Shown here: positions 1 to 20,846 of the stretch, piece by piece | Numbering within the stretch: the stretch's first letter is position 1 | Layout of the letters: each line of letters starts with the position of its first letter | Source: a virus | Virus record (IMG/VR): IMGVR_UViG_3300040801_001914 | Coordinates: 1 to 24,126 of that record | DNA: 24,126 nt | Strand: one strand, 5' to 3' | Made by a program: the position numbers and the translations under genes | Notes under the pieces: generated by a model | What the model saw: only the letters and a program-made list of their open reading frames with translations | Told to the model about the DNA's origin: nothing | Databases searched by the model: none

Positions 1-3
1 GGC

Positions 4-246
4 GTGGCGAGGCCAACGAAAAAGGAACGGAACGCTTATCCGGCAGGTAAGAGCGTGAATGGGGAGTCCGTAGCTGCCACCCTGCTCCGTTGGAACCCTT
101 ATGGTGGTGAAACCTTTGTGGTGGGTTGGACGGCAGAGTACGCACTTCCGCGGGAAGTTCATGACGGCTACATGCGCCTGGCGGTTGGCAAGTGGGATCG
201 GTTCGTTGAAGCTAATGTCAAAAAGCAACGTACCAAACTCGGGTGA
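4..246 (+). CDS. small hypothetical protein, possibly 5'-truncated by the window edge
   Basis: An 80-residue frame opens with a GTG at the very edge of the window and ends at TGA 244-246. I do not recognise the family. The product is basic at its N-terminus (ARPTKKER) and has several aromatic residues (WNPYGGETF, VVGWTAEY), with no membrane segment. The frame is also open through the first three bases of the window, so the true start may lie upstream and no ribosome site can be judged. Its last 32 bases overlap the start of the next gene. By position, just before a glycosyltransferase cassette and the tail genes, it could be a minor head or neck gene, but nothing in the sequence proves that. 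Confidence 0.45.
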   Translation: MARPTKKERNAYPAGKSVNGESVAATLLRWNPYGGETFVVGWTAEYALPREVHDGYMRLAVGKWDRFVEANVKKQRTKLG

Positions 247-817
247 CCCCTGGTGGCTCTGCGTAGCCACGGGGCCCTCCCTACGGCGCACAGACCTAGA
301 TGCGCTCCGGTGGATTGGTGAGCGGTCCATAGCGGCGAACTGCGGGGTGTTCTTCGCTCCTTGGGTGGGACGGCATTATGCCGCGGATGAGCAATGGTAC
401 AGATACTACGGATGGAGGACGCGCCCCTGGTACCAGGGTGAACGGTATGGGGCCCAAACGCACCGCTCGGATGTCAAACGCTGGCGGCACCGACTGCGCT
501 GGACGGAGAAGGGCGGCAACAGCGGCCACCATATCATTCACATGGCGGTTGAACTGGGGGCAACCCGGATAGCCATTATCGGATACGACCACCAGCACAC
601 GGGCGGGAAGACGCACGTTCACGGGGACCACCCATCGCGAAACGGAATGCGCATGGGCAACGCTCAACCGGCCCATGTCTGGGCGCGTCGGATGCCGGCC
701 ACGGCCCGGGACTTGGCGAGACGCGGTGTGCAGCTAATCAACCTAACGCGGGTGACGGCTATCCAGTGCTTCGACCGTATGACGGCACCTGAGTTCACTG
801 AGGAGTATGGGCCTTGA
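215..817 (+). CDS. DUF115 / MptE-like Rossmann-type phage protein (sugar- or nucleotide-related)
   Basis: The 200-residue product has a Rossmann-like entry motif VATGPSL (residues 17-23), then GGNSGHH (100-106), IIGYDHQ (121-127) and HVHGDHP (134-140). This motif order is what I associate with phage proteins of the DUF115/MptE-like family, relatives of proteins acting with glycosyltransferases in surface-sugar metabolism; the biochemical role in phages is not settled. I chose ATG 215 because the alternative in-frame ATG at 101 adds a low-quality N-terminus lying wholly inside the preceding gene. The ribosome site is weak (TTGAAG about 6 bases upstream), so translation is probably coupled to the upstream gene, which it overlaps by 32 bases. 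It overlaps the next gene by 4 bases. Family fairly likely; function inferred. Confidence 0.65.
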   Translation: MSKSNVPNSGDPWWLCVATGPSLRRTDLDALRWIGERSIAANCGVFFAPWVGRHYAADEQWYRYYGWRTRPWYQGERYGAQTHRSDVKRWRHRLRWTEKGGNSGHHIIHMAVELGATRIAIIGYDHQHTGGKTHVHGDHPSRNGMRMGNAQPAHVWARRMPATARDLARRGVQLINLTRVTAIQCFDRMTAPEFTEEYGP

Positions 818-1524
818 TTGTTGGTATCACCAGGGTTCGCAATGAGGAGCTAATACTGGCTGACACGCTGGCGCACTTTCAACAATGGTGTGACCAAATC
901 ATTCTCTACGACGACTGCTCAACTGACGACACTGTAACCCTGGCGCTCGACAGCAACGCCGCTGTCATTGCCGGGGATGAGTGGCGGTCCGACAGGGTGG
1001 CCGAAAACACCCGTCACCGTAAGCGGCTGTTCGATGAAGCTTGCCGGGCTGGTGCGGAGTGGGTGCTGTGCTTTGATGCGGACGAACGGTTGGAGGGCAC
1101 GCTGCCAGAACTTACGGCGGACGCCTACACGTTCCGGCTTTACGATGGGTACATGGCTGACGGTTATGACGTGCCTTATACGGACGGACCGCTGGCTGAG
1201 CTCCCTCGCCTGTGGGGGCCGGAGTATCGGGACATCCGTATGCTGTTCCGTGCTAACCCACAACGGGTGACGTGGGCGAGGCCTGGTATGCGGCAGCCGG
1301 ACGTCCTTGGGTGTGTCAAGCGGGCCCCAATGGACGTTCGCCATTATGGGAAATGTCTGAGCGTTAAACACTGGGAGGAGACTTGCGATTACTACATCAA
1401 ACACTTCCCACAGTGGCGTGCCAAGTGGTGGGCGCGGAAGGGCAAGGCCATACATAGCAGGTCGGACTTCCTGCGCCCGTTGGTGCCCTGGGAACGTTTA
1501 AACAGTGTCGCGGTTCCGTTGTAA
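814..1524 (+). CDS. GT-A fold glycosyltransferase, family 2
   Basis: The 236-residue product has the GT2 nucleotide-sugar binding layout: N-terminal strand IVGITRVRNEE, then DDCSTDDT (residues 33-40, equivalent to the D-G/C-S-x-D-x-T signature) and the metal-binding DxD motif in CFDADERLEG (DAD at 88-90). It should transfer a sugar from a nucleotide donor, with acceptor unknown. The start is a TTG that overlaps the previous TGA (TTGA, 814-817), preceded by GAGGAG about 10 bases upstream, so TTG is well supported. It ends in TAA sharing one base with the ATG of the next gene. Members of this group act on cell-surface polymers or, in phages, possibly on virion proteins; no membrane anchor is visible. 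Confidence 0.85.
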   Translation: MIVGITRVRNEELILADTLAHFQQWCDQIILYDDCSTDDTVTLALDSNAAVIAGDEWRSDRVAENTRHRKRLFDEACRAGAEWVLCFDADERLEGTLPELTADAYTFRLYDGYMADGYDVPYTDGPLAELPRLWGPEYRDIRMLFRANPQRVTWARPGMRQPDVLGCVKRAPMDVRHYGKCLSVKHWEETCDYYIKHFPQWRAKWWARKGKAIHSRSDFLRPLVPWERLNSVAVPL

Positions 1525-2306
1525 TGCGCATTCTAATCGCCGGCAAATACGGCCCACATGGGCACCAGAAGATCGGTGGGGTGCAGACGTGGATCGCCAC
1601 CCTGGCGGCGGAGTTGGAGAGGCGCCACCATGTGGTTGAGTTGTGGGAGCACGGCCAGCGACTCCCGGAGGGACGCTTTGACATTGGGGTGCTTTCAAAT
1701 TGGAAGCACACGGGCAAGCTGGCTAAACAGTGTAACACCGTGCGGGTGGTGTGCCACGGCATTATCCCGGACGAGAAACCGTTGAACCGGGATGTTTACT
1801 TCACAAGCGAAGGTGTGCGTGACCATTGGCACGGGCGGGGACCGATACTCCGCCAGCCAATAGACTTGAAGTTCTGGACACCATCGCTGTGCGAAAAAGA
1901 ATACTACGTCCGGTTCAGCTATCGGCGGGGCTTGGCATTTTTGCCAAAAGTCGCCGTCGCTCTCAATCTACCGTTCTACCATTTACAGAACGCGACACCA
2001 CACCAGGCCCGCAGTGTTTTGCAGCGGGCGGCGTGTGTCGCTGCCACGGGCCGGGCAGCTCTGGAAGCAATGGCGGTCGGCGCTCCGGTTGTAATACTTG
2101 ACCATAGGTCGGCCTACCAAGGGCCACTACTGGACGTCCACACGCTTGCCTCCATGGCTAGAAACTACTCCGGGCGGGGTGGCACAGCCCCAACGATCGA
2201 TTCGGCCGTACAAGCGAGCAGGCGGGCGATAGCGTGCGGATCCTTGCGACACCATGTGGAACAGTACCACGACGTCGAGAAAATTGCGGGGGAACTGCTA
2301 CCGTGA
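1524..2306 (+). CDS. GT-B fold glycosyltransferase, family 4-like
   Basis: The 260-residue product starts MRILIAGKYGPHG and has the GGVQTW motif (residues 18-23) followed by an amphipathic helix, the classic N-terminal acceptor-side signature of GT4 enzymes (GG-x-x-x-x-x-x-LA-x-x-L). Near the C-terminus ATGRAALEAMAVGAPVV (174-190) matches the donor-binding segment E-A-M-A-x-G-x-P-V-V. At 260 residues it is clearly shorter than typical GT4 enzymes (about 350-400), so it is a compact phage form. ATG 1524 shares a base with the previous TAA, and the end overlaps the next start as GTGA. It probably adds a second sugar in the same pathway as its neighbours. Acceptor unknown. Confidence 0.8.
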   Translation: MRILIAGKYGPHGHQKIGGVQTWIATLAAELERRHHVVELWEHGQRLPEGRFDIGVLSNWKHTGKLAKQCNTVRVVCHGIIPDEKPLNRDVYFTSEGVRDHWHGRGPILRQPIDLKFWTPSLCEKEYYVRFSYRRGLAFLPKVAVALNLPFYHLQNATPHQARSVLQRAACVAATGRAALEAMAVGAPVVILDHRSAYQGPLLDVHTLASMARNYSGRGGTAPTIDSAVQASRRAIACGSLRHHVEQYHDVEKIAGELLP

Positions 2307-2788
2307 GTCGAATATGTTTAAACACCCCGGTCCTTGATTTCATGGAATTCCATTTGAACGGGAGGGGCCGCGTGCTGGAATTTGGTGGGGGTTTCTCAAC
2401 CCCGTGGTTCGCAGCGCGTTGTGATGTGCTGTTAACCCTGGAAACGAGCCGGGCCTGGGCGGACTTAATAGAGCAGGAGCTCCTGGATGGGCGCCACGTC
2501 AACGTCCAAGTTCTGCGCGTGAACCACGTTTGTGACATCACAGTGACGGGTGTATTTGACCTAGCACTTGTTGACTGTGTCAAGAGTCAACGGCACCAGG
2601 CTGCGCTCTACGGTTGGATGGTCCTTAAAGAGGGGGGTTGGCTGGTCTTCGATGACGCACAGCGGTCCGAACATAAAGGCACCGTGAGACATTTTGACAA
2701 CATGAGGGACGGGACGCGCCTGGGCTGGGACCGAGACTTTGACATCCCGCAGGCCCGTGAACGGTTGGCGGTAGCGTGGCAGAAATGA
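2303..2788 (+). CDS. class I SAM-dependent methyltransferase-like protein
   Basis: The 161-residue product contains a class I Rossmann methyltransferase motif I, VLEFGGGFST (residues 24-33), an acidic strand end LTLETS for ribose binding (44-49), ALVDCV (88-93) as a motif IV-like strand, and GGWLVFDDA (111-119) as the later strand. I chose GTG 2303, overlapping the previous TGA as GTGA with GGGGGAA upstream, instead of the ATG at 2234, which would extend the protein 23 residues into sequence that looks like a shadow of the GT4 gene. It ends as ATGA with the next gene. In this cassette a sugar O-methyltransferase, which would cap or decorate the glycan, is the simplest guess. The substrate cannot be read from sequence. 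Confidence 0.7.
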   Translation: MSRICLNTPVLDFMEFHLNGRGRVLEFGGGFSTPWFAARCDVLLTLETSRAWADLIEQELLDGRHVNVQVLRVNHVCDITVTGVFDLALVDCVKSQRHQAALYGWMVLKEGGWLVFDDAQRSEHKGTVRHFDNMRDGTRLGWDRDFDIPQARERLAVAWQK

Positions 2789-3480
2789 TTTACCTGCTAA
2801 CCAACACGGGAGGGCGGCCTGAATGCCTGCGCCTGCTGTCCGCGTACATACGTGCTCAGGATTACCAGGGGCCCATGACTTGGGTGGTGGTGGATGATTG
2901 CATACCGCGGACGCCGGTGATGGACCCAGGTAACTGTGACGTCCGCGTTGTTAACGCGCCTTGGGTCTGGAAACCTGGCACAAACACCCAGGCGCAGTCC
3001 ATACGTTTCGGCCTACAGCAAATCGAGGACGACGCTGCCCGCGTGTTGGTCCTGGAGGATGACGACGTGTACCTGCCAGGCCACGTTTTAAGCATCGTTA
3101 AGCACCTGGACAGTTTTGACCTTGTGGGCGAACGGTTGGCAAAGTATTACAACGTCAGAACTCGGCGCTATCGGGAGCTTCCCGGAATGCGTCATTGCTC
3201 CTTAGCGAGCACGGGATTAAAGGGCCCGGCCATAGGGAAACTACTGGACATCGTTGAAACACCAGGCGCCGTGCTCATTGACGCAAAGCTATGGGTCTCC
3301 TTCACTGGAAGGAAGAGGCAACTACGCACGGCAAACGTGGTCGGTATCAAAGGCATGCCCGGACGCGGGGGAATCGGCGTGGGCCACAGGCCGACGTTCG
3401 GAAAAACGGATGTCCATGGCAAGTTTGAGGCAGCGGTTGGTGCAGCCATTGCCCGTCAATATGAGGAGTACGCGAGGTGA
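2785..3480 (+). CDS. GT-A fold glycosyltransferase-like protein
   Basis: The 231-residue product begins MIYLLTNTGGRPECL, a GT2-type first strand, followed by VVVDDC (residues 34-39) and the metal-binding acidic run VLEDDDVYLPGH (89-100), which replaces the usual DxD. I prefer ATG 2785, which overlaps the previous stop as ATGA with GGCGGTAG upstream, to the GTG nine bases earlier. It is the last gene before the tail terminator, whose GTG start overlaps its TGA. It belongs to the same overlapping run as the two other glycosyltransferases and the methyltransferase, so all five are probably made from one mRNA together with tail proteins. Donor and acceptor unknown. Confidence 0.75.
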   Translation: MIYLLTNTGGRPECLRLLSAYIRAQDYQGPMTWVVVDDCIPRTPVMDPGNCDVRVVNAPWVWKPGTNTQAQSIRFGLQQIEDDAARVLVLEDDDVYLPGHVLSIVKHLDSFDLVGERLAKYYNVRTRRYRELPGMRHCSLASTGLKGPAIGKLLDIVETPGAVLIDAKLWVSFTGRKRQLRTANVVGIKGMPGRGGIGVGHRPTFGKTDVHGKFEAAVGAAIARQYEEYAR

Positions 3481-4814
3481 GTGTAGCGACGCAAATCTTG
3501 ACGGCATTCGGTGACCACCTGAAGAACTTTGCATACTCACCGGAGGTGCCAGTAATTCCGCCCAACAGGGGCGACCAAACACCCGATGCGGGGCTGTGGC
3601 TGGAAGCAAGCTTCTTCCCTAACGCACCGCTCAATGTGACACTGGACTTCAATGCTATTGACGAGCAGCTTGGCTTTTTTCAAGTGCTCGTCTGCTACCG
3701 TAAGGACATCGGGCAGGTCCGGCCGTCAGAGCTGGCGGATGCCGTCATCGACTGGTTTCCGAAGGGCCTGGAGGTTGGGCCTGTTCGTGTGCGGCAAACC
3801 CCCTACCAGTTGCCGGCAGTGACGGAAGACGGTTCACGATGCTACATCGCGGTAACCATCCCATATCGCGGCCTCGTGTGTGCTGACATTGAGCCGCCAC
3901 CGGAGCCGCCAACCACCGCGCCGACACTCTCCCTCACCGTGGTTTCAGACTCCGCTATCGCGTTGGAATGGACGACCGTGGTGGACGCTGAGGCATACCG
4001 CGTGGAGCGGTCCTTGAACAACTCGACGTGGACCGCTGTCGCCTTCACAGGCGGTCTGGTCTTTGGGGATACCGGACTTTCCGGGGAGACAGAATATTTC
4101 TACCGTGTGGTCGCTTACAGCGAAGGCGGTGACGGGCCCTTCAGTAACACGGAATCCGGAACGACCCTTGCCGCACCACTCTTCCTGGCGAACTTCGACG
4201 CCGACCCTTTGACGCTGCTCACGAATTACGTGCCCGACGCGGACCCGTCCGGCTTAGGTATTGTGGGGACACCGGCCTTTGGACCGGCTGGTGAGTGGGT
4301 CATAAACCAGGGCGCCCTCGGAACAGCCCAAGTCTTCACAGCGTCAACGGGCCTGAACCGCTTCCAGTGGGCGCTCGAAACGCCGCTCCTGGAGGAGTAT
4401 GAAATTGCCTATGAGTTCCGGGGTCTGTTCAACAACAACGCGCGCTCGCCAGGCATGTTGGTTTGCGGCGAAAACACGGCGGGGACCGCTTGCTATTACA
4501 TCCGTTGGGGATCGAGTCAAACATTTGAACTAATAGACATCCAAAGCGGCGGGCCGCAGGGCACGCTCGACAGCGCTGTTGTTGCACGAACCGCAAACCA
4601 TACTTACCGAGCGAGAGTCGTGGTGTCCGCCACGGAGATCAACGTGTACTTGAAAGACCTCACGGAGGATACGCCTGAGTCGCTAATATTGACTGCCGCG
4701 GACACACAGTTTCGCGGTGAATTTTTCGGCTGGAGATCAAGCCAATCCAGCAACGACCTCGGCGGAACTTTGTCGCCGGTTATTTATAGAATCAGAGCTG
4801 GCCAAGTCAGCTGA
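3477..4814 (+). CDS. tail terminator-like protein fused to FN3 and jelly-roll (ConA/LamG-like) domains
   Basis: The 445-residue product has three parts. Residues 1-138 (SVATQILTAFGDHL ... CYIAVTIPYRGL) resemble the small tail-terminator / DUF4128-type proteins that cap the head-proximal end of siphophage tails, and lie in the expected gene position just before the tail tube gene. A proline-rich linker (PPPEPPTTAP) leads to a fibronectin III domain at about 146-231 (SAIALEWTTV ... EYFYRVVAYSEGGDGPFSN). Residues 236-445 are beta-rich and resemble a ConA/LamG-type carbohydrate-binding jelly roll. Tail terminators are usually about 130-150 residues, so 300 extra residues are unusual; they would be displayed near the head-tail joint. 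GTG 3477 overlaps the previous TGA and has GAGGAG upstream. Domain calls are by eye. Confidence 0.7.
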   Translation: MSVATQILTAFGDHLKNFAYSPEVPVIPPNRGDQTPDAGLWLEASFFPNAPLNVTLDFNAIDEQLGFFQVLVCYRKDIGQVRPSELADAVIDWFPKGLEVGPVRVRQTPYQLPAVTEDGSRCYIAVTIPYRGLVCADIEPPPEPPTTAPTLSLTVVSDSAIALEWTTVVDAEAYRVERSLNNSTWTAVAFTGGLVFGDTGLSGETEYFYRVVAYSEGGDGPFSNTESGTTLAAPLFLANFDADPLTLLTNYVPDADPSGLGIVGTPAFGPAGEWVINQGALGTAQVFTASTGLNRFQWALETPLLEEYEIAYEFRGLFNNNARSPGMLVCGENTAGTACYYIRWGSSQTFELIDIQSGGPQGTLDSAVVARTANHTYRARVVVSATEINVYLKDLTEDTPESLILTAADTQFRGEFFGWRSSQSSNDLGGTLSPVIYRIRAGQVS

Positions 4815-4840
4815 AATGATATGACGCCCTGGGCGATCCA

Positions 4841-4854
4841 GGTTTCCGGAAACC
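4841..4854. repeat. 14-bp perfect palindrome in the gap before the tail tube gene
   Basis: GGTTTCCGGAAACC is fully self-complementary and sits in the 69-bp gap between the terminator-fusion gene and the tail tube gene, one of the few real gaps in the rightward block. It is followed by TTTACA, not a T-run, so it is not a convincing terminator. It could be an RNA processing hairpin or a protein-binding site. I see no good promoter in the gap. Confidence 0.4.
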
Positions 4855-4883
4855 TTTACAACTACAGAATGGAGGATTGAGTT

Positions 4884-5348
4884 ATGTCCGATTGCGGCAT
4901 CACCCACTCGGGCCTCGTCATTGGCATCAGCACCACGGTCGAAAACGACGACGTGGACCTGTCAACGGTCGAGGGCCTGTCTTACGAGAACCTGCCCAGT
5001 GTGGGCAACGCGGGCGACACTGGTGTCACCCAAAACATCATCAACTACAGTACCCTGGATCGGCAGGTAATTTGCAAGGGCAAGGGCGAGGCAAATGCCG
5101 GTGACCCCACCATTGAGGCGCTGGATGTACCGAGCGCAGCGTTGGACCTGTTCGTCGCGGCTGCGGCCACGGACAACAGTGACAACTACGTCATCCGGTA
5201 CCAGTGGCCCGACGGGTCCTATGAGTACAACCGAGGCTTGATCACTGGGCCGCAGCGCATGAAGGGCGGTAACGAAGACTTCAAGCGCATCATGTTCACC
5301 TGCGGTAACCAGCAGGCGCCCATTGTTGTTGAAGCTCCGTCAGCCTGA
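4884..5348 (+). CDS. major tail tube protein
   Basis: The 154-residue product is small, acidic, beta-rich and free of membrane segments (TVENDDVDLSTVEG, VICKGKGEANAGD, YVIRYQWPDGSYEYNRG). It lies between the tail terminator and the assembly chaperones, which is the usual place of the tube protein in siphophages. It has the best ribosome site of the tail block (GGAGG about 8 bases before ATG 4884), its own upstream gap, and an intrinsic terminator directly downstream, all expected for a protein needed in hundreds of copies per virion. Tube subunits are typically 130-250 residues. The assignment rests mainly on position, size and expression signals. Confidence 0.75.
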   Translation: MSDCGITHSGLVIGISTTVENDDVDLSTVEGLSYENLPSVGNAGDTGVTQNIINYSTLDRQVICKGKGEANAGDPTIEALDVPSAALDLFVAAAATDNSDNYVIRYQWPDGSYEYNRGLITGPQRMKGGNEDFKRIMFTCGNQQAPIVVEAPSA

Positions 5349-5363
5349 CGGTGTACACAGGTT

Positions 5364-5403
5364 CCCCCAGCTCCGGGCGCTTCGGAGTTGGGGGTTTCTT
5401 TCC
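5364..5403 (+). terminator. intrinsic terminator after the tail tube gene
   Basis: CCCCCAGCTCCG (5364-5375) pairs with CGGAGTTGGGGG (5383-5394), one G-U pair, across a 7-base loop, followed by TTTCTTTCC. It starts 15 bases after the tube stop codon. The next gene starts 28 bases beyond it with no evident new promoter, so it is probably partial and lowers downstream expression relative to the tube gene. Confidence 0.8.
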
Positions 5404-5430
5404 TAAAGCGCAAAATGAATGGAGAATGAT

Positions 5431-5832
5431 ATGGACCTTTCAACGATTGTACCCACAGGTCGTCAGTTCGAATTGCTGCACCCGCAGACGGACGAGCCGA
5501 CCGGAATTATCTTTCACCTGCGTTCACCCGATGCACCTGAAGTCAAAAAGGTTCAACGGGACTGGCAAGACCGCATGCTGGCGCCGAAGCGGCGGAGTAA
5601 AAATGTCGGCGCCGAAGACCTGGAGGCGTTCCAAAAGGAGCGCATCATTGCCCAGGTTGAGGGGTGGGAATTTACCAACTCTGATTTCAACTTGGGCCCG
5701 GACCAGGAGTTCACGCCCAAGCTGCTCCGCTCACTGCTGAAGAAATTGCCGTGGCTCCAAACGGCACTGACTGCTGAGACGGAGGACTTGTCTGCTTTTT
5801 TGACTGGTCCGGCGGACAGCTCGTCCGCCTAG
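5431..5832 (+). CDS. tail assembly chaperone, short (G-like) product
   Basis: The 133-residue product (MDLSTIVPTGRQFELLHP ...) occupies the position of lambda gpG, between the tube and tape measure genes, where siphophages encode chaperones that coat the tape measure before tube assembly. I chose ATG 5431 with GGAGA upstream (from 5421); the ATG at 5419 is in the same frame but its use would place the good ribosome site inside the gene. Near the end the codons GCT TTT TTG form the slippery heptamer TTTTTTG (5796-5802), and translation in frame stops at TAG 5830-5832. A share of ribosomes should shift by -1 and continue to 6200. Confidence 0.8.
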   Translation: MDLSTIVPTGRQFELLHPQTDEPTGIIFHLRSPDAPEVKKVQRDWQDRMLAPKRRSKNVGAEDLEAFQKERIIAQVEGWEFTNSDFNLGPDQEFTPKLLRSLLKKLPWLQTALTAETEDLSAFLTGPADSSSA

Positions 5833-6200
5833 TCCAGCACCTTATCCGCTATGATGGGCAGTGGGGCCATGAAGTTTTCACCGGCAGGAATGAACGCAAA
5901 AAAGTTTCGCGTCGGGAGTATTATGAAACCATTGGCTACCCTGTCCCGGATATGCCAGAGTGCCCGTCACAAGTTGAGCACGTTTGGCTGTGGTTCTGGG
6001 AAATAACGCGGAGGCGTGCGCCGGCATTTGACGGCGCCGCCCCTTTAACGCACACGGAGGTCGAAGCGTGGTCAAGGTTGACGCGGACGGTGATACGCCC
6101 CTGGGAGGTCAAAATGCTTTTCAGGATTGACGACGGCTACCTGGAACAGCGGGCCAAGGAAATAGAAGGCCAGCGGGACCGGCAGAAGGAGAAACAATAA
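5431..6200 (+). CDS. tail assembly chaperone, -1 frameshift (G-T-like) fusion product
   Basis: Reading join(5431..5802, 5802..6200) gives 256 residues: 124 from the first frame, then 132 starting DWSGGQLVRLVQHLIRYDG. The -1 frame is open without a stop from the slippery site to TAA 6198-6200, and its protein is sensible throughout (YYETIGYPVPDMPECP, WFWEITRRRAPAFDG, WEVKMLFRIDDGYLEQRAKEIEGQRD). The only ATG in the second frame, 5952, has no ribosome site and would discard 50 well-formed residues, so expression by frameshifting fits better than independent initiation. In lambda the equivalent G-T protein recruits the tube protein to the tape measure at a fixed low ratio. The end overlaps the tape measure ATG by one base. 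Confidence 0.85.
5796..5802 (+). promoter_or_regulatory. -1 programmed ribosomal frameshift slippery heptamer TTTTTTG
   Basis: The heptamer reads T TTT TTG in the zero frame, a canonical X-XXY-YYZ site. After slippage both tRNAs can re-pair on TTT TTT. It lies 27 bases before the zero-frame stop and in the correct register to enter the open frame of the T-like extension. Confidence 0.85.
5811..5829 (+). promoter_or_regulatory. frameshift-stimulating RNA stem-loop
   Basis: GGCGGAC (5811-5817) and GTCCGCC (5823-5829) form a perfect 7-bp GC-rich stem with loop AGCTC. The stem base is 8 nt downstream of the slippery heptamer, the usual distance for a stimulatory element. An outer CTGG/CCAG pairing (5804-5807 with 5834-5837) could extend it. 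Confidence 0.75.
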
Positions 6201-9200
6201 TGCCAGGTGCAACAAACCTTGCCCGCGTCGCTATTGAAGCGGACACAAAAGACCTTGTCAAACTAAAGCGCCGTCTCCAGGAGGCCCGTAGCTCGACAAA
6301 GCAAATGGCGGACTCCGTTGCGCGCATGCAGTCGCAGCTAAAGAAAGCCGAACGCACGATGGGTAAGCTCGGGCGGAACATGTCCTTGGGACTTACGGCG
6401 CCCCTGACGGCGGCTGGTGCGGCCATTGTGAAATTCGGGCTGGAGTTTGGCTCAACCCTGGCTACCATGAACACGCTGGTCGGGGTTAGCCGGGAGGAGA
6501 TTGCGCAGTTCCGAAAAGAGGTGTTGCAGTTGGCTCCCACAGTTGGCCGGGGGCCGGCTGAGTTGGCCAATGCGCTTTTCGCCATCACCTCCGCCGGCCA
6601 ACGCGGCGCCGCTGCCATGGAAACGCTCACCGCAGCCAGCAAAGCGTCCGCCATTGGGCTCGGCGACACTAGGGCAATCGCGCTCGCAGCGGGTGCGGCT
6701 GTCCAGGCTTACGGTGAGGCGAACATTACATCAACCGAAGCCGTGGAAGTCCTGGTCGGGACTATTGAGCAGGGCAACCTCGCGGCTGAAAGCCTGGCGC
6801 CCGTGTTGGGCCGTGTCATTGGCCTGGCCGCTGAAATGGGGATCACCTTTGATGAGGTTGGTGCGTTCATTGCCACCTACACCCGCCTCGGCATTAACGC
6901 TGAGGAAGCCACCACTTCCCTCCAGGGGGTCATGAGTGGCCTGCTGCGGGTGACGCCTGCGGTCGAAGCCGCCTTTGCGGATATGAATATGACTGCTGAC
7001 GGCTTCCGGCGTCAGATTGAGGATGAGGGGCTCATTGCCGCATTCAGTGATCTGGCTGCTGCTGCCAAAGCAAACAACACTGACATCTCCGCCCTGGTGC
7101 CCAACGTGCGGGCCCTGGCCGGTGTCTTGGGTGTGTTCGGTGGGGAGGGCAACACCGCCAAGGAAGTCGCCGAGGGCGTTGCCGGCGCTGTGGGCACCCT
7201 GGATGAACGCCTCAAGGCCCTTATTGAGCTTGACCCAGGCTTTGCCGTGCAGCAAATGAAGTCCGAGCTCCAGGCACTTGCCATTGAATTGTCCGCCGAC
7301 TTGCTTCCCGCTTTTGCCTCACTCATTGAACTCCTACGTGACGCCGTTGATGCCTTCCGCAGCTTGACGCCTGAGACACGGTCAACCGTGGTACAGGTGG
7401 CGGCATTCGCCGCAGCCATCGGCCCCCTCCTAATAGTGCTCGGCTCCGTCACCGCATCCATCCGGGTCCTGCTGGGCCTCCTCCCCCTATTGCGCACCGC
7501 AATGCTCTTCCTCGGCCCCACGGGGCTAGTCGTGGCTGCCGCTTCCGCGCTGGGTGGTTTGGCCTATGCTATGAGCCGGACTGGTGATGAAGCGGACGAG
7601 TTGACTGACCGCATAAATGCCCTGATGGAGCAAATGGACCGGGCAGGGAAGAGTCAGTTTGAGTTGGCCATGTTTGACCTCGGCCAGGCGTACCAGGAGA
7701 CAAGTGACGAAATTGCCGGCATGCGGGAGGAGATGGAATTGCTCCGTGACTTGCAGAGTGGCCCACGGTCCGAACGTGAAGCAATGCGCATGGCTGAACT
7801 CGCCAAGGAAATCGAAGCCGCGACCGCGAAGCTGGAGAAGTATAAGAACCTGATGCAGGAGCTTTCCGAGCGCCGGGCGGCAACTGTTCCGAGCCCGGAG
7901 TCGAACCTCATTGAAGGTGCGGACGCCACGGGCCCGGTGGAAGCCTACCGGCAGGCCCTACTTGAACAGGCTGCTGCGGCTGACCAGGCTGCTGCGGCAC
8001 AGAAGAAAGTCAACGCGCTGACCGCTGAGCTACGCGGCACAATCAACCCCGTTGTGGCGGCCCAAAATGAGCTCAATGCCGCTCTGGCTGAGTTCGCCAA
8101 GCTGAGCGACCTTGGGGCCAACGTGTCTGACGGTGTTGAGGCCGCGCTTGCTGTTTACATTGACGCGATCCGCGCTTACATTGACTCCCTGAAGGAAGCT
8201 GAGGACGCAACGGAGGAGTGGGACGCGGCTGGTGCGCTCCGCGGGCTTGAGGAGGCCATTGACCCGAGCCTTGTGGCGGTTAACAAATTCGTGGACCAGA
8301 TGGAGATCCTGAAGCGGCTGCTGGATGACGAGGTTATTGACGGCGAGCAGTTTGATGACATGGCTGTGGCGCTGGCCAACATGCGGGAGGAGGCTAACGG
8401 GGCGGCTAATGCGCTGGGTGATATTGCGGGCGCCGTCGGCCAGTTCTCCTCCCAACTAGCGGGTGACCTGCAGAGCTTTGCCGGGCTGTTCAAAGATGGT
8501 TCCGAAGAGGCGAAGCAACTCGCGATCGCTATCTCGGCGCTCAATGTTGTCACCGGGGTTGCGGCAGTGCTGAAACAGCTCTCCGAAGGCGATGTCTACA
8601 GCGCCATCCCCCGGGCCATTGCCGTCGCCGGCACAGTGGCGGCCTTGGGTGTGCAGATTGCCAACCTGTCCGGCGGTGCGGCTGACCCCACGGCGGCACG
8701 GCAGGAGTCGCTCGGTACCGGCACAGTTCTTGGGGACGCCGATGCGCGGTCCGAGAGCATTATCAACAGCCTGGAGATTACCGCAAACGCGACCGAGGAG
8801 CTTGTGGGAATCAACCGTGGCATGCTGCGTGCGCTAACCAACCTCACCGACGCCATTGCCGGCGCCACCACCCTCCTCGCTCGCCAGGCTGTGGACCTGG
8901 ACTTCGGGGCACTGCCCGGCACTGAGGGCCTGCTGGGAAGCCTGGGACTACCTGACCCGGTGTTTGGTTTGCTGAATGACTTCCTGGGTGGTTCAGTTGA
9001 CATTGCTGACACGGGTATCACCATTGCAGGCGGCAACCTGGACGAGCTTTTGGGCGGAGCGCTAATAACCGCGTTCCAGGACCTTGCGGTGAAGAAGAAC
9101 ATTTTCGATGACACTGACATTGAGCGCCGCACGGTAGAACTTTCGGACGCAGTGCAAAGCCAGTTCGGCGCCGTCTTTTCAGCCCTTGTTGATACCGTCA

Positions 9201-11137
9201 GGGAAGCAGCCGGTGTGCTTGGGTTTAGCATGGAGGAGATCCAAACGGCCCTTGATAACTTTATTGTCTACCAGCAGGACATCAGCTTTGAGGACATGAA
9301 CGCCGAGGAGCAGCAGGAAGCGCTTGAGGCGTTTTTCAGCACGGTGTTTGACCGGCTGGCCCACGAGGTTGTCCCGTTCCTGACAGACCTCCAGCAGCTT
9401 GGTGAGGGCATGGGTGAGACGCTGGTGCGGGTGGCGACCTCGGTGCAGGTGTTTGACTACGCATTCGAGAACATTGGCTTCCTGTTCAATTACACACTAG
9501 AGCAGTTCGGCGGCAGCCTGGAGGACTTCAGGTACCGCACCACCATCTCAAAAGTGGCGCTCATAGAATTGACCGGCGGGCTGGACGCTTTCATTGAAGG
9601 CATGAACGGGTTCATTGACGGCTTTGCCAGCGACGAGCAGAAGTTCCAAATGACGCTCAACGCGCTGACTATGCGGTTTGACGAGTTGGGAATTGCGCTG
9701 CCCACCACGCGCGACGGCCTGTGGGATCTTATGCAGTCACTTGACGCCAGTACCGAGGCCGGGCGCCAGGGGATTGCCACACTGCTTGAGTCCACTCCGT
9801 TGCTGGAAGCGTACTATGACGCCATGGAGGCAGGCGCCGCCACGGTGCGCAATTTCATTGATCTGCCGGGCGGACAGCTTGAGAGCCTGACGCAGCAGTT
9901 CAGGGCCGCTATGGAGGCGGCAAAACAGCTCAACGCCTCGCAACAGGAGTATGAGCTGATCGTGCGCAAGTTCAGCCGCAACCTCCAGCGGTTGGGCGCT
10001 GAGCTGACGCGCTCCGTACTGCAACAGTCCCTCAGCTTGTTCGGCGATGCTGCGCAGGACGCCGCGGAGGACATTGTGGGCGGCTTGACTGAGGTGCGGG
10101 AAGTGTCCAACTCGCTGTTCGGTGAGTGGCAACGGGCGCTGACAAACTTGAAAGGGTTTGCGGACGGACTGCTGCTGGACGAGAGCGTTACACCGCTCAA
10201 TCCCACGCAGCGTCTAAACGAGGCTGAAGCACAGTTCGAGGAAACCCTACGGCGGGCCCTGGAGGGAGATGTTGACGCCGCTGCGGACCTACCCCAAATC
10301 TCCAGTGAGTTCTTGGACATTGCGCGGTTCATGTTTGCCTCAACTGGCGAATACACCGCCATCTTCAACCGCGTCCAGGAAGCGCTGCGAGGGATTGAAA
10401 TGCCCCCTGGCATTGAGGAGTTCACGCAAGAGATTGTGGTTAACACCGGGCTCACGTCAGCCAACACGTCAGAGATGACGCGGCAGCAGAATGAAATGAT
10501 TGCGCAGCTTGACCGGCTGATTGCGGCCATGGACTTGTCCAACACCCTGGGCGAGCTTGCTTTCACCCTGGGGCAGTCACCAGTCGCCATCGCGAATGAG
10601 CTGGGTGTGCCCCTGAAGGATCTGGCGACGGCTCTGGGCATTGACCTGGACAGCGTTAGCACCGAGACGGTCATGGGGATCATTAACATGGCCGACCGCC
10701 TGGGTGCTGACATCTTTAACCTGGGTGACGCCCTGGGTGTTGACATCCAAGCAATGGCCGACCAGTTTGGCGTTGACATTAGCAACCTGGACCCGACGTC
10801 CCAGTTCGACCGGGAGATTGATTCGCTGAACAGCATCCTGAGTGAAAGCGTCGAACAGACAAACCTGTTGCGCATAATTGCCGGCGAGCAGCCGCTCATT
10901 GATACGGTAATTCCCACGGAGCGCGACCCTGTCGGCGCTGTGGACGACTTTGGGCCCGGTACAAAGCCAAGGGACCCCAATGACCAGCCGGGCGGCACAG
11001 GCGGCCCTACAGCGAGCCCTAGCGACGAGCTGCTTGAGGACACAAACACACTGCTCACTAAAATTGTGCAGCAGCAGGAGGACATGAAAACGGAGCTGCG
11101 TATCTTGTCCGAAACCACAGCGAGGCAAGTATCATGA
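6200..11137 (+). CDS. tail tape measure protein (TP901-like)
   Basis: The 1645-residue product sets tail length and is ejected during infection. The N-terminus is a helical coiled coil (residues about 10-60, LKRRLQEARSSTKQMADS) leading into a TP901-type core (about 65-320: ITSAGQRGAAAMETLTAASKAS, GTIEQGNLAAESLAPVLGRV, TRLGINAEEATTSLQGVMSG). A long hydrophobic stretch at about 390-458 could insert in the host membrane. The rest is mostly helical, with Ala-rich coiled coils, and residues 1453-1529 are seven 11-residue repeats. At about 0.15 nm per residue a tail near 245 nm is predicted. ATG 6200 shares a base with the preceding TAA and has AAGGAGA upstream. Family identity is firm. Confidence 0.95.
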   Translation: MPGATNLARVAIEADTKDLVKLKRRLQEARSSTKQMADSVARMQSQLKKAERTMGKLGRNMSLGLTAPLTAAGAAIVKFGLEFGSTLATMNTLVGVSREEIAQFRKEVLQLAPTVGRGPAELANALFAITSAGQRGAAAMETLTAASKASAIGLGDTRAIALAAGAAVQAYGEANITSTEAVEVLVGTIEQGNLAAESLAPVLGRVIGLAAEMGITFDEVGAFIATYTRLGINAEEATTSLQGVMSGLLRVTPAVEAAFADMNMTADGFRRQIEDEGLIAAFSDLAAAAKANNTDISALVPNVRALAGVLGVFGGEGNTAKEVAEGVAGAVGTLDERLKALIELDPGFAVQQMKSELQALAIELSADLLPAFASLIELLRDAVDAFRSLTPETRSTVVQVAAFAAAIGPLLIVLGSVTASIRVLLGLLPLLRTAMLFLGPTGLVVAAASALGGLAYAMSRTGDEADELTDRINALMEQMDRAGKSQFELAMFDLGQAYQETSDEIAGMREEMELLRDLQSGPRSEREAMRMAELAKEIEAATAKLEKYKNLMQELSERRAATVPSPESNLIEGADATGPVEAYRQALLEQAAAADQAAAAQKKVNALTAELRGTINPVVAAQNELNAALAEFAKLSDLGANVSDGVEAALAVYIDAIRAYIDSLKEAEDATEEWDAAGALRGLEEAIDPSLVAVNKFVDQMEILKRLLDDEVIDGEQFDDMAVALANMREEANGAANALGDIAGAVGQFSSQLAGDLQSFAGLFKDGSEEAKQLAIAISALNVVTGVAAVLKQLSEGDVYSAIPRAIAVAGTVAALGVQIANLSGGAADPTAARQESLGTGTVLGDADARSESIINSLEITANATEELVGINRGMLRALTNLTDAIAGATTLLARQAVDLDFGALPGTEGLLGSLGLPDPVFGLLNDFLGGSVDIADTGITIAGGNLDELLGGALITAFQDLAVKKNIFDDTDIERRTVELSDAVQSQFGAVFSALVDTVREAAGVLGFSMEEIQTALDNFIVYQQDISFEDMNAEEQQEALEAFFSTVFDRLAHEVVPFLTDLQQLGEGMGETLVRVATSVQVFDYAFENIGFLFNYTLEQFGGSLEDFRYRTTISKVALIELTGGLDAFIEGMNGFIDGFASDEQKFQMTLNALTMRFDELGIALPTTRDGLWDLMQSLDASTEAGRQGIATLLESTPLLEAYYDAMEAGAATVRNFIDLPGGQLESLTQQFRAAMEAAKQLNASQQEYELIVRKFSRNLQRLGAELTRSVLQQSLSLFGDAAQDAAEDIVGGLTEVREVSNSLFGEWQRALTNLKGFADGLLLDESVTPLNPTQRLNEAEAQFEETLRRALEGDVDAAADLPQISSEFLDIARFMFASTGEYTAIFNRVQEALRGIEMPPGIEEFTQEIVVNTGLTSANTSEMTRQQNEMIAQLDRLIAAMDLSNTLGELAFTLGQSPVAIANELGVPLKDLATALGIDLDSVSTETVMGIINMADRLGADIFNLGDALGVDIQAMADQFGVDISNLDPTSQFDREIDSLNSILSESVEQTNLLRIIAGEQPLIDTVIPTERDPVGAVDDFGPGTKPRDPNDQPGGTGGPTASPSDELLEDTNTLLTKIVQQQEDMKTELRILSETTARQVS
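10556..10786 (+). repeat. seven tandem 11-residue repeats within the tape measure
   Basis: Residues 1453-1529 divide without gaps into seven 11-residue units, among them LAFTLGQSPVA, IANELGVPLKD, LATALGIDLDS, MADRLGADIFN, LGDALGVDIQA and MADQFGVDISN; the fourth unit (VSTETVMGIIN) is degenerate. The consensus is [LMI]-A-x-x-[LF]-G-[VI]-[DP]-[LI]-x-x. The DNA is only partly repetitive, so selection acts on the protein. Confidence 0.8.
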
Positions 11138-16356: not shown

Positions 16357-18395
16357 CACTTTTGTTCGACTTTTTTTAAGTGGCCCCAATCGGGCCCAAC
16401 CTCGTCATCCACAAGTACGGGGATTTCTAGCTGCAACGCATTCTCCATCACATGCTTGATTTCCGCCCAGGCCTCCGGGTTGGTTCCGTCATCGCTAAAG
16501 TCAAGCTCGTCATGTACCGTGAGCAGCGGCAGCCGCCCCTCAGCGAACAGCCCTTGGCGGTAGCAGTCGATCGTCGCCTTCTTAATTAAGTCCGCGGCGC
16601 TGCCCTGGAGCTTTCGGTTGAGCGCCTTGTGCGTGCCGGCTCGTTTAATGTTCGGTCCGTAGCGGGACACCGCCTTATCAAGTGCCAACGCCGGGGCGGA
16701 CGGGTCGTACTCCTTGGGCTCCCACAGGTCGAAGCGAGAACGGCGCCCGAGTATTGTGGTCACGTAACCTTGGAGCTCGGCAAACTTGGAGACCTCGTCC
16801 ATTGTGCTGCGAACGAACGGCAACGCCGCGTGGTAGTCCTGGAACAACGACTGCACCTCTTTCACTGGCATGCCAAAGAGCGCCGCCAGGGCCGGGAGAC
16901 CCATACCGTAAATCAATCCGAAGTTGATATTCTTAATGGACTTGCGGGCAAGCTTGCGGCCTGTCTTGTGCGTCACAATGGTTTGCGTCTTTGCGTGGTA
17001 GTCGGTGTCCGGTTTGTCCCGGAATTCCTGCCGCACCTGTTCCGCCCCCTGGCCGACTGCGAAGTGGACAAGAAAGCGATATTCAATCTGGCTGTAATCC
17101 CGCTGCCGCCAGCGGCACCCGTGCTCGGGAATAAAAATACCCCGCATAATAGGCGCCATTTCCGGGTCCCGGCTGGGGATGTTCTGGAGGTTCGGATTGC
17201 TGGAACTGTAGCGGCCTGAGCGGGTGCCGTAGCCCGTGCCCCGCAGCGGGTGGAACTCGCAGTGAATGCGCCCGTTGACATGGGAGCCCATGATGTAGGA
17301 GCGCACAAAAGTATCCCGCAGCTTCATACATCGGCGCACCTCTGCGATCGCGTTGCCGACCGGGTGTTGCACGCTCTTGAGAAACGGTTTGGTGAACGAA
17401 GGCTTTTTCGACAGAGGGGTGAGCGGGTATTCTAGCCCCAGGGCGTCAAACAAGTGGCCCAAATCCTCCCCCGCGTTCACGTTGACCCGGCGGCCGGCGA
17501 TCCCGGATAGCAGCCCCTCCCCCACCTCAATCTTTTCCGATAGCTTGTCGTCGGCAGCTTGTGCAGCGTCCAGGTCAACCGGCACACCGCGGAACCGCAT
17601 GTCCAACAGCATGGGAAGCTGACTGCACTCCATAAGGAACAGGTCCAGGAGCCCCTCGCTTCGCAGCAGCGGCCACTGACGTTCGAGGATGGCTATAGGC
17701 ATTTCCGCATCGGCTTCCGCATACGGGCCGACCAGGGTTGGCGGGGAGCGCCACAGGTTCGCACGTTGATCTTTCTCGCCGCCACCGTACCAGTCAGCGC
17801 ACCACCTGTAGAGCGCGTTCGTTTCCTTGCCCCGCTCCAAGTACCGCTCACCCAAGTCGTCCAGAGCGATAGTACGCTGCTCATGCAACAGCGCCTCGGC
17901 CCATTGGACGTCAAAGCATGGGCCGCCGACATTGACGCCCTCCTCGCGCAGCCACCCCAAGTCATAAATCAGGTTGGCCCCAACCTTCGGGGTATCCCCA
18001 CCAAGGGTATCGCTCAACCAGGCAAGCACCGCATCCGGGTCCATGTTGGTTTCAGGTTGAACAGTGTGCCTCATTGGGAAGTACCAGGACCGCTCCGGCA
18101 CCGCCACGGAGACGCCCACAAGGCAGCCGTCCCCGTGCAAATACCCAGGCACCCCGGCGGGCGGCTTGGCGTTGGCGGGGTCGCGTCTGGCCCAGCCTGG
18201 GCCGGTGTCTTTAAGGTGCGGGTCGTAGGTTTCAACATCCACCCCCAGCACACCGGCCGCGGACAGGTTGGGAAATTCCTTTGGCGTGGACCAGCCGGTT
18301 TCCGGGATGGGAGGCATGGGCCCCAGAACGCGCTCACCCCTCTTGGTCTTGGCTGGGAAATCCTGCCAGAAAATTCCGACGTCGTCCGTTCGCAT
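16353..18395 (-). CDS. family A DNA polymerase with 3'-5' exonuclease
   Basis: The 680-residue product replicates phage DNA. Exonuclease motifs: GVDVETYD (D53, E55), NLIYD (N141-D145) and YAEAD (Y225-D229). Polymerase motif A is RDYSQIEYR (D433), motif B RKSIKNINFGLIYG (484-497; F492 is the residue aligned with F762 of E. coli Pol I), motif C TVHDE (catalytic D629, E630). There is no 5'-3' exonuclease domain; the exonuclease follows about 45 N-terminal residues. I start at ATG 18395, which shares a base with the upstream TAA, not at 18539, whose extra 48 residues run antisense-like inside the clamp gene. It is the last gene of the long leftward unit. Catalytic residues all look intact. Confidence 0.97.
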   Translation of the reverse strand: MRTDDVGIFWQDFPAKTKRGERVLGPMPPIPETGWSTPKEFPNLSAAGVLGVDVETYDPHLKDTGPGWARRDPANAKPPAGVPGYLHGDGCLVGVSVAVPERSWYFPMRHTVQPETNMDPDAVLAWLSDTLGGDTPKVGANLIYDLGWLREEGVNVGGPCFDVQWAEALLHEQRTIALDDLGERYLERGKETNALYRWCADWYGGGEKDQRANLWRSPPTLVGPYAEADAEMPIAILERQWPLLRSEGLLDLFLMECSQLPMLLDMRFRGVPVDLDAAQAADDKLSEKIEVGEGLLSGIAGRRVNVNAGEDLGHLFDALGLEYPLTPLSKKPSFTKPFLKSVQHPVGNAIAEVRRCMKLRDTFVRSYIMGSHVNGRIHCEFHPLRGTGYGTRSGRYSSSNPNLQNIPSRDPEMAPIMRGIFIPEHGCRWRQRDYSQIEYRFLVHFAVGQGAEQVRQEFRDKPDTDYHAKTQTIVTHKTGRKLARKSIKNINFGLIYGMGLPALAALFGMPVKEVQSLFQDYHAALPFVRSTMDEVSKFAELQGYVTTILGRRSRFDLWEPKEYDPSAPALALDKAVSRYGPNIKRAGTHKALNRKLQGSAADLIKKATIDCYRQGLFAEGRLPLLTVHDELDFSDDGTNPEAWAEIKHVMENALQLEIPVLVDDEVGPDWGHLKKVEQKC

Positions 18396-19354
18396 TAGGC
18401 GAGACCCACTATGACGCCGCGAATGTTGTCGCCGTACCATGCACAAGGCTTCGGCCAATCCTGCCAAGCTACACTCTGAGCAATGCCACCCAGCTTCGCA
18501 AGCTGGTCGGCGCTGTACTTGCCTTGCATACCAGCGCATTCCGTGGCGAGCATGTGGGCACCCTCCTCACACTCCGGAGCGCCTGTGCTGACCATGCCGT
18601 CAGGCGTTAGCCACACCCGCCGCAAATCATCCAAGAAGGGCCGCAGGTTGTCAAGTGTGGTAAACAGGGAGGCATCCACCGGGGAGCTTTCCTTGACATC
18701 TCCCAGCAGTGCGCTCGGGTCCGGCCACTTGCTTATCTCAATCAAATTACTGGTGAGCACCCGGTCCCCCTCAAAAGTGAACGTGATTGTGCGCCCGTCT
18801 GTCTGCAACGCAATCGGCTCCTCCCCGATGCGCAGCAGCTCGTTGACGCATTGTGTCGGGAGGCCGAACGGCTGCGGCACATCATAGCCCAGCCAGTGCT
18901 CCGCAAGGATTATATTGTTCGTCGCATAGGCGCTCTGCTTCGCGAATAATATACCGCGCGACCAGGGGCGGGACGCGTCATCGCTCATAAGTGCGTGTAA
19001 GCTGCGGAGGCATTCCTGCACGCCTCCCTCCAACGCCAGGGCCTCGCCGCCCGTCCGTATATCGGGGAACTCGTTTTCGGTGGTGTCAATGTAGGCTCGA
19101 AAGTCCTCGCTTCGCACAGCCAGGCGCCCAGTGTCTGTAATGTGCAGTGTCACCGTGTCCTTGCAGAGCTTAATCGCGTTCACAAACGGCGCCGCCAGGG
19201 GCCGGACGTCCAAGTCACAATCAATTGGACTGCGCAGCCCGACGACCCCGTTGTATGCCTGCACCACACCCGACTGGATTTGAAAGTGCTTCAGCATAGG
19301 TTCGGCCGTCTTTGTGCTCACGGCGCCCTGCACAAATTGCAGTGTTTCCAGCAT
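18395..19354 (-). CDS. DnaN-like sliding clamp (putative)
   Basis: The 319-residue product begins MLETLQFVQGAVSTK and shows beta-clamp-like blocks: ILFAKQSAYATNNIILAEHW, matching the clamp segment around ATDGHRLA, then FGLPTQCVNELLRIG (like IPRKAVDEL-type segments) and ITFTFEGDRVLTSNLIEISK followed by WPD (like the I-x-F ... L-x-S-x-L-I-E-G-x-F-P-D block). Bacterial DnaN is about 366 residues, so this is somewhat short. The start is set by AGGAG before ATG 19354, sharing a base with the upstream TAA; the longer start at 19417 lacks a site. Location next to the polymerase gene supports a processivity factor. The call is by motif order, not a certain match. Confidence 0.65.
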   Translation of the reverse strand: MLETLQFVQGAVSTKTAEPMLKHFQIQSGVVQAYNGVVGLRSPIDCDLDVRPLAAPFVNAIKLCKDTVTLHITDTGRLAVRSEDFRAYIDTTENEFPDIRTGGEALALEGGVQECLRSLHALMSDDASRPWSRGILFAKQSAYATNNIILAEHWLGYDVPQPFGLPTQCVNELLRIGEEPIALQTDGRTITFTFEGDRVLTSNLIEISKWPDPSALLGDVKESSPVDASLFTTLDNLRPFLDDLRRVWLTPDGMVSTGAPECEEGAHMLATECAGMQGKYSADQLAKLGGIAQSVAWQDWPKPCAWYGDNIRGVIVGLA

Positions 19355-20277
19355 TAGAAGAGCTCCTGTCGTTCCGGTTTGAAGGAGCCGCCGCTTACGG
19401 CTTCCCGCATTTCCCAATAAGCTTGGAGGTTAAAGACGCGCCGTGTCATGAAGTAGCGTTGCATCCTGTCCATGCAGTACCCGCGACGCGTCACCGCATG
19501 CTCAACACGCTCCCGCTCAAGCGGTGTCATGCTCGTGTAGTGTTGCCCGGCCACCTTACGGGATGGTGACTCGTGCGACATCTGCACCACTCCAATCTCA
19601 GGAATCAGTATGCCTCCGAAGCTGCTGGTCTGTACCCAGCTTGAGCTATCCACACTCGCCCAAGGATACCGCTCCATCAGCCGCAGCGATGTGAGGCCGA
19701 AGCCGTGGACTCGCGTGCGAGGATTGCCATCGGAATCCACAAGGTAGCGCCCCCATATCCGGTCCAGCCAGCGCTCAAGCCTGGGGGTGCTGCCGCCGAC
19801 CATTCCACCGAGAGCGATGTACTTGTAACCGGAGGCGCAGACTTCCGCGAGTTCCTCTGGGTCCCCGAAGTGGTAGCAGGGTATCGGAGGCTCTCCGAGC
19901 GCGTCCTCCATCGCCCTCTGGTTGTCCCAGGTTTCCTCCGCATTTCCGATTGAGTCCAGCCCCGCCGCAAGGAGGGCGCCGGAGCTGTCGCGTCGCACGA
20001 GCCCCTCATTTCGCTTGATGTATTTAACGTAAGCATCCAGATCCACCGTCGTTCCCAGAGTGGCGGCACTGTAGGCGCCGCTATCAAGGAGCACCGTGTG
20101 GCCGCTCTCAGCCATTGTGCGGGTGTGCTTATCGTTCGCGACGTAGTGGTAGGACTCGAGGCGGTCTGGCGTGTAGGTGTCCGTCACCTGTTGCTCAAAA
20201 TCGTTCAGCCGGGTTCGATAGGGTCGCTGCCCGGCATACATCCCATTATTGCACATCGCCGCCATGTAAACTTTCAT
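19354..20277 (-). CDS. dpdA: DpdA-like DNA guanine transglycosylase
   Basis: The 307-residue product resembles tRNA-guanine transglycosylase (TGT) blocks in order: LLDSGAYSA (residues 63-71, like TGT LTDSGGFQ; D65 is the likely acid/base), YIALGGMVGG (153-162, like YAIGGLAVGE), and HGFGLTSLRLMERYPWASVD then SSSW (191-214, like GVGTPEDL ... GVDMFDCV; D210 the likely nucleophile). The TGT zinc motif is not seen. This is the pattern of phage DpdA, which exchanges guanine in DNA for a 7-deazaguanine. The start at ATG 20277 overlaps folE's stop as ATGA; a start at 20448 would add 57 residues that are a shadow of folE. With all preQ0 genes beside it, a DNA-modifying role is much likelier than tRNA modification. 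Confidence 0.88.
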   Translation of the reverse strand: MKVYMAAMCNNGMYAGQRPYRTRLNDFEQQVTDTYTPDRLESYHYVANDKHTRTMAESGHTVLLDSGAYSAATLGTTVDLDAYVKYIKRNEGLVRRDSSGALLAAGLDSIGNAEETWDNQRAMEDALGEPPIPCYHFGDPEELAEVCASGYKYIALGGMVGGSTPRLERWLDRIWGRYLVDSDGNPRTRVHGFGLTSLRLMERYPWASVDSSSWVQTSSFGGILIPEIGVVQMSHESPSRKVAGQHYTSMTPLERERVEHAVTRRGYCMDRMQRYFMTRRVFNLQAYWEMREAVSGGSFKPERQELF

Positions 20278-20846
20278 CCGTTCACCAGTGATAGGAACTC
20301 GGCCCGCACCTCCGGCTCGTCCTTGAAGGCGCCGCGGAGCGCGGATGTCACCGTTGTTGAGCCGTGTACGCGCACGCCACGGGCCTCCATACACCCATGC
20401 GAGGCCCGTATAACAACTCCGACTCCCAAGGGCCGCAGGTGCGTCCACAGGGCCTCGGCGATCTGGTTTGTGGCACGCTCCTGCACCTGTAGGCGCCGCG
20501 CGTAGATGTTGGTAACGCGCACCAGCTTAGAAAGGCCCAGGATTTTTCCGTTGGGGATATAGCCGATGTGTGCCATGCCGCTGATTCGGGCCATGTGGTG
20601 CTCGCAATGGGACTCGAACGGTATATCCCGAACCATAACCATCTCGTCGCACCCCTCAGCCCCATCCTTAAACACCTTCATGACGTCCGCGGGGTCCTGC
20701 CCGTAGCCTGACGCCCACTCCTCAAGCCAGGCCCTCGCAACGCGACCCGGGGTTTCCGCTAGGCCGGGCCGGTTCGGGTCCTCGCCAATGGCGATAAGAA
20801 GGCCCCGGATAGCGGACTCCGCGTTACACCTGTCAGCGTGGCTCAT
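20274..20846 (-). CDS. folE: GTP cyclohydrolase I, type IA
   Basis: The 190-residue enzyme opens GTP to 7,8-dihydroneopterin triphosphate, the first step of both folate and 7-deazaguanine synthesis. The zinc ligands are present: C81 and H84 in SHCEHHM and C152 in SHGCMEARG. Other family blocks are NRPGLAETPGRVARAW, HIGYIPNGKILGLSKLVR and QVQERATNQIAEAL. Length matches short bacterial enzymes. ATG 20846 has a strong GGAGGTGA site and overlaps the queD stop as ATGA; its own stop overlaps dpdA's start. A phage copy presumably raises flux to preQ0. Confidence 0.96.
   Translation of the reverse strand: MSHADRCNAESAIRGLLIAIGEDPNRPGLAETPGRVARAWLEEWASGYGQDPADVMKVFKDGAEGCDEMVMVRDIPFESHCEHHMARISGMAHIGYIPNGKILGLSKLVRVTNIYARRLQVQERATNQIAEALWTHLRPLGVGVVIRASHGCMEARGVRVHGSTTVTSALRGAFKDEPEVRAEFLSLVNG

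Follow-up and report, generated by a model that had tools for sequence, protein, structure and literature searches.

A candidate virion-glycosylation module carried as cargo between neck and tail genes of tailed phages

Introduction

What would sugar-transfer enzymes be doing between the neck and tail genes of a phage, and what would they modify? The question is raised by a 24,126-base IMG/VR virus record, called the window here and analysed over its whole length, in which a putative cassette of five overlapping genes (g1-g5) occupies positions 215-3480 of the plus strand, flanked by an HK97-gp10-like gene on the left and the tail terminator on the right. Along the plus strand a gp10-like fragment is followed by the cassette, the terminator, the tail tube and tape measure genes and the distal tail genes, while PolA and a 7-deazaguanine block of DNA-modification genes lie on the minus strand. 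In the literature that we found, proof of virion glycosylation by phage-encoded enzymes comes only from a few mycobacteriophages. Published accounts place an O-methyltransferase and three glycosyltransferases (GTs) among the head genes of Corndog, and report that the capsid and tail tube are glycosylated in the Corndog/Che8 system (PMC4351075, PMC11600133, PMC12363180).

Results

Layout and junctions of the cassette

All five open reading frames that a sequence-only reading of this DNA had called a glycosylation-like cassette are present as described (Table 1), and measurement bears out its overlaps of 1-32 bases running into the tail terminator gene. The gp10-like gene overlaps g1 by 32 nt, and the junctions that follow overlap by 4 nt for g1/g2 (TTGA), 1 nt for g2/g3 (TAATG), 4 nt for g3/g4 (GTGA) and 4 nt for g5/terminator (GTGA). 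The g4/g5 overlap is 13 nt if g5 begins at GTG 2776 and 4 nt (ATGA) if it begins at ATG 2785, the latter being the more likely start because relatives start there. Junctions of the ATGA, GTGA, TTGA and TAATG type fit translational coupling. No terminator-like site was found on the cassette strand before 4038, and the strongest on that strand is the hairpin 3' of the tail tube gene, the total of such sites found in the window being not above that in shuffles. The gp10-like gene alone gave no match in Pfam or PHROG searches; its profile matches gp10-position genes in loci L006, L007, L011-L013, L057, L129 and L147.

Table 1. Features of the cassette and its flanks in the window
Feature	Positions	Strand	Basis or remark
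HK97-gp10-like neck/tail-completion gene, 3' part	1..246	+	left flank of the slot; profile match to gp10-position genes
g1, DUF115/MptE-like, sialyltransferase-like	215..817	+	phrog_4603
g2 (GT2a), predicted GT-A type glycosyltransferase, TTG start	814..1524	+	PF13704
g3 (GTB), predicted compact GT-B type glycosyltransferase	1524..2306	+	PF00534/PF13439 matches of relatives
g4, Methyltransf_24-like, accessory	2303..2788	+	PF13578
g5 (GT5), predicted GT-A type glycosyltransferase	2785..3480 (alternative GTG start 2776)	+	59-member family, AlphaFold model
g6, tail terminator with C-terminal extension	3477..4814	+	PF13554, PF00041; right flank of the slot
Major tail tube protein	4884..5348	+	phrog_158, E 1.8e-7; conserved in relatives
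Terminator-like hairpin 3' of the tail tube gene	5364..5394	+	14-pair stem, T-rich tail

Predicted enzymes

The assignment of g5 is carried by its structure and its family. Taken singly, its score against PF00535 (13.7 bits) fails the cut-off of 23.3, and 31 of its 59 relatives match that profile at E<=0.01. Its AlphaFold model has a GT-A fold (pLDDT 96.4) with 303 PDB matches at E<=1e-3, the best being AvpGT (E 3e-8), SpsA (E 1e-7), WrtF and TarS. An acidic, DXD-type metal-binding motif, EDDD, is invariant across the 59 GT5 sequences, and the family also keeps T6, R11, Q25, W33, E91-D94, Y96 and D166 together with an invariant GIKGxPGRxGIGxGH-type block. We therefore refer to g5 as a predicted GT-A, GT2-like glycosyltransferase.

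g2 scores above the cut-off against both PF13704 (35.3 bits, cut-off 27.5) and PF00535 (23.8 bits, cut-off 23.3), and its nearest PDB sequence is GmaR (E 1e-4), an enzyme that glycosylates flagellin. The assignments of g3 and g4 are weak. By itself g3 stays under the Pfam cut-off; PF00534 is matched at E<=0.01 by nine of 12 relatives and PF13439 by seven of the 12, and the family has invariant residues at R110-D114 and in the G176-E181 region. g4 falls just under the cut-off for PF13578 (E 4.4e-5, 24.7 bits, cut-off 26.3). A search for g4 relatives found none, and this methyltransferase is an accessory seen only in the cassette of the window.

g1 matches phrog_4603 (E 1.3e-30), and its relatives include PmgO of phage P1 and orf7 of Pseudomonas phage D3. 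Its match to the DUF115 profile PF01973 is weak (18.7 bits, cut-off 34.6), although the profile picks up 26 of its 36 relatives at E<=0.01; a single-sequence scan of viral contigs with g1 gave no matches, and profiles were required. The structure model (pLDDT 90.7) matches viral MptE-like models only, at TM 0.6-0.7, and a fold search of the PDB returned nothing at E<=1e-3, no solved glycosyltransferase among the targets being matched. The sialyltransferase label depends on the PHROG annotation and on weak profile matches to CstII, a GT42 sialyltransferase (E 0.007-0.01). With no solved glycosyltransferase fold matching it significantly, g1 might be something other than a glycosyltransferase.

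A four-enzyme module recurs in other phages

Profile searches of IMG/VR gave 170 relatives of g5 (80 kept), five loci for g3 and 38 for g2. Such relatives come from uncultured contigs, with a small number in prophages (Lysobacter). The module that recurs consists of DUF115, GT2a, GTB and GT5: at least three of the four lie within 7 kb in 19 non-redundant contigs, eight of which have all four, and in 17 of the 19 a gene recognisable as head, neck or tail lies nearby. Synteny labels come from HMM matches with E-values between 1e-3 and 1e-6, and many of the contigs are short fragments, so that absences are soft. Across 78 GT5 loci, DUF115 lies within 6 kb of GT5 in 42 of 45 DUF115 matches, always on the same strand (binomial p about 6e-4 when an even spread along the loci is expected, a mild test with loci that are short and in part related to one another). 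Of the 38 GT2a loci, 26 have a GTB-family gene a few genes from GT2a, as counted from gene maps. By these counts, the joint recurrence of four of the five genes exceeds chance. The five-gene unit of the sequence-only reading thus survives in part: four genes recur as a set elsewhere, and the methyltransferase falls outside it.

Where they are present together, GT2a, GTB and GT5 keep that order, with DUF115 either before or after them, and the module and the structural block always share a strand. The arrangement is otherwise loose. In L156 the module sits across the terminator, on its opposite side; in the prophage of Lysobacter spongiae 119BY6-57 (L090) two connector-like genes separate DUF115 from GTB-GT5; and on the contigs of L004 and L013 GT2a is located elsewhere (L155, L165). 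This retention of the enzymes together despite shuffling (L156, L157, L160, L090, L004 and L013) argues for a common function. Between L006 and L007, dN/dS is about 0.2 for GT5, GTB and DUF115 and similar for the terminator, which argues that these are maintained genes under purifying selection, not decaying insertions. Among 50,697 phage records, no match to GT2a, GTB or GT5 was found at E<=1e-3 by single-sequence tblastn, which remote relatives could escape; the queries were g2 and g5 together with the L003, L090 and L176 versions of GT5, GTB and GT2a.

The gp10-terminator junction as a cargo slot

The phages compared share homologous flanks, namely the gp10-like gene, the terminator and the tail tube. 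Natural empty sites occur in L149, where the gp10 stop abuts the terminator start, and in L136, where a 50-base gap lies between the two genes. The slot is filled by DUF115-GT2a-GTB-GT5 in L129 and L147, by a methyltransferase in L133, by two genes of unassigned function in L134 and similar contigs, and in L122 by DUF115 and three proteins that resemble, by eye, two glycosyltransferases and a methyltransferase, none of which matches Pfam. Empty sites and varied cargo between homologous flanks indicate that the junction is an exchange site, a slot that may be empty or carry other genes. In distant phages, the genes directly upstream of GT5 include nucleotide-sugar epimerases, methyltransferases and glycosyltransferases, and those directly downstream include head-tail adaptors. 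Microcystis phage Me-ZS1 was considered as a further empty site and rejected, its neck proteins having no match to the cassette-flank profiles.

Two slot proteins are of separate interest. L132 has a weak sulfotransferase match in the slot (L132:3000-3638), and a 171-aa slot protein of L006 (L006:7181-7696), without a Pfam match, resembles this sulfotransferase-type protein; together they hint at sulfated sugars in some phages.

The terminator fusion and structural genes in the slot

In the window, g6 joins a tail terminator (aa 6-130; PF13554, E 3.1e-15) to an fn3 match (aa 149-225; PF00041, E 3e-5, at the cut-off) and a further C-terminal part that looks beta-rich. The sequence-only reading had put forward this FN3/jelly-roll fusion as the acceptor. 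As a conserved acceptor it is ruled out by L129 and L147, which have the same four enzymes and plain terminators of 133-135 aa; among more than 20 terminators the FN3 fusion is confined to the window, other terminators being 131-135 aa long. A second kind of terminator fusion is found in L123 (L123:1-2538), where about 700 residues of repeats precede the tail terminator in frame, incomplete at the contig start.

In L006, L007 and L011-L013, the slot holds two probable structural genes. The first encodes 167-222 aa, and a VGSAPGDxTGDxGRTAFQxVNxN motif is conserved close to the start of its product; the second, variable one encodes 288-547 aa, with DUF285 repeats in L012 and a beta-rich product in others. 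In L004 such genes lie upstream of GTB. When tail tube and capsid C-termini were compared for a cassette-linked change, the capsids of relatives with the cassette showed no match to those of relatives without it.

Discussion

We consider it probable that the cassette belongs to a soluble module that glycosylates a virion protein and that tailed phages carry as cargo in a neck-gene slot. The genes, folds, signature motifs, selection, recurrence, slot and empty sites are observed; what we infer from them is enzyme activity, the sugar donors, the step order, the acceptor and what the sugar coat is for. The glycosylation enzymes would be produced alongside the neck and tail proteins and would draw on the nucleotide sugars of the host, working in its cytoplasm. 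Step by step they would assemble a short glycan on one virion protein, be it the capsid, the tail tube or a decoration protein, while the particle is being put together or earlier. GT2a and GT5, of GT-A type, and GTB, of GT-B type, may each add one sugar, the DUF115/sialyltransferase-like enzyme may begin or cap the chain, and the methyltransferase of the window phage may cap or edit a sugar. A fuller version can be offered tentatively, as possible rather than probable: that the four enzymes form a previously undescribed protein-glycosylation pathway, carried as exchangeable neck-slot cargo by diverse uncultured tailed phages; the pathway would equip a virion protein with a capped glycan and would have arisen independently of the mycobacteriophage system.

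The sequence-only reading had allowed for two targets, virion proteins or a host surface altered late in infection. Its sugar-transfer cassette coupled to virion genes is supported, and of its two targets the virion is the more likely, given the placement in a structural operon, the lack of membrane segments, the epimerases, methyltransferases and other glycosyltransferases at that position in relatives, and the mycobacteriophage precedent. Late alteration of LPS or capsule, for example, might spare progeny from loss to debris or superinfection; enzymes of GT2 type are common in pathways for surface polysaccharides, and among the neighbours of GT5 relatives are two that match a GtrB-like PHROG. 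Against such a role, none of the five cassette proteins has a membrane segment (highest 19-residue hydropathy 1.43), the cassette contains no flippase or polymerase, and its position within the structural operon is constant across many lineages, so we think it unlikely that the host surface is the target. The window also invites a reading in which the sugar goes onto modified bases in the DNA of the phage, since it has DpdA-, FolE-, QueD-, QueC- and QueE-like genes and phage glycosyltransferases are known to glycosylate DNA bases. We regard this as highly improbable, because the 7-deazaguanine genes do not track the module: QueC is found in none of 24 other module-family contigs, nor in L129 or L147 (fragments, in which absence is soft), a thymidylate synthase family member occurs in only one of 25 contigs, and Me-ZS1 shares the 7-deazaguanine block, yet its Phage_tail_S gene (a Pfam assignment) abuts the terminator with no cassette between. 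The block itself (18395-23828, minus strand) lies beside a clamp-like gene and PolA, and recurs in Me-ZS1 with its gene order kept. Its QueC open reading frame has a long N-terminal part resembling glutamine amidotransferase, and a protein encoded at 23398-24078 of the minus strand has a lysine/alanine-rich AKKTKAKKAPAEKAAPKK tract that resembles histone-H1-type tails.

If a virion protein is the target, the acceptor could specifically be a decoration protein, either encoded by the structural genes of the slot in relatives or supplied by the FN3/jelly-roll part in the window. The pair of probable structural genes that separates DUF115 from GTB in L006, L007 and L011-L013 and the long repeat region fused ahead of the terminator in L123 would suit this idea. 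However, L129, L147 and L057 have the module without such genes or fusions, and the fusion of the window has no sequence relation to the slot structural proteins of relatives; a dedicated decoration acceptor therefore seems improbable to us.

Among known systems, the closest parallel to virion glycosylation by the module is that of the mycobacteriophages. Corndog gp35-38 (Firecracker gp33-36) and Che8 gp108-110 combine several glycosyltransferases with a Methyltransf_24-type methyltransferase, as the window cassette does. The Corndog genes, however, lie between the portal and protease genes rather than at the neck-terminator junction, and Corndog and Che8 lack the DUF115 and GT-B enzymes of our module. 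With Firecracker sequences standing in for Corndog, the cassette proteins gave no significant BLAST, HMM or hhalign match to Corndog/Che8-type glycosyltransferases. By analogy, the module may work in a Corndog/Che8-like manner, and since its enzymes have no detectable homology to those of that cassette, we would class it as a variant of virion glycosylation, not as a member.

PmgO of P1 and orf7 of D3 (phrog_4603) are related to g1 at about 30% identity, and no relatives of GT2a, GTB or GT5 were found in P1 or D3. PmgO is not required for growth of P1 (PMC10695390), which fits decoration better than morphogenesis. In D3 (L151, D3 3500-9500), orf7 lies between the capsid and head-tail adaptor genes and the orf13 methyltransferase adjoins a gp10-family gene; with the unassigned 275-aa gene orf12 they are scattered among head-tail connector genes, perhaps as a reduced version of such a cassette.

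The flagellin glycosyltransferases Maf and GmaR offer a parallel for cytoplasmic transfer before assembly, although the window has no flagellin. Maf carries a DUF115 domain, and by profile it has this short DUF115-like domain alone in common with g1. Transfer of sugar by Maf to a structural protein takes place in the cytoplasm before assembly (PMC4065374). The gtrABC-type seroconversion clusters are likewise phage-borne glycosyltransferases, but they have a membrane flippase and a polytopic transferase, which are absent from the window cassette, located as it is in a virion operon.

The module suggests that virion glycosylation arose separately from the mycobacteriophage system and spread through uncultured phages, with a neck-gene junction as the exchange site for sugar-modifying genes. 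Because a prophage of a cultured Lysobacter has three of the four enzymes (DUF115, GTB and GT5), the question becomes testable. If the proposal is true, many phage particles would be sugar-coated, and the module would provide a new set of soluble protein glycosyltransferases.
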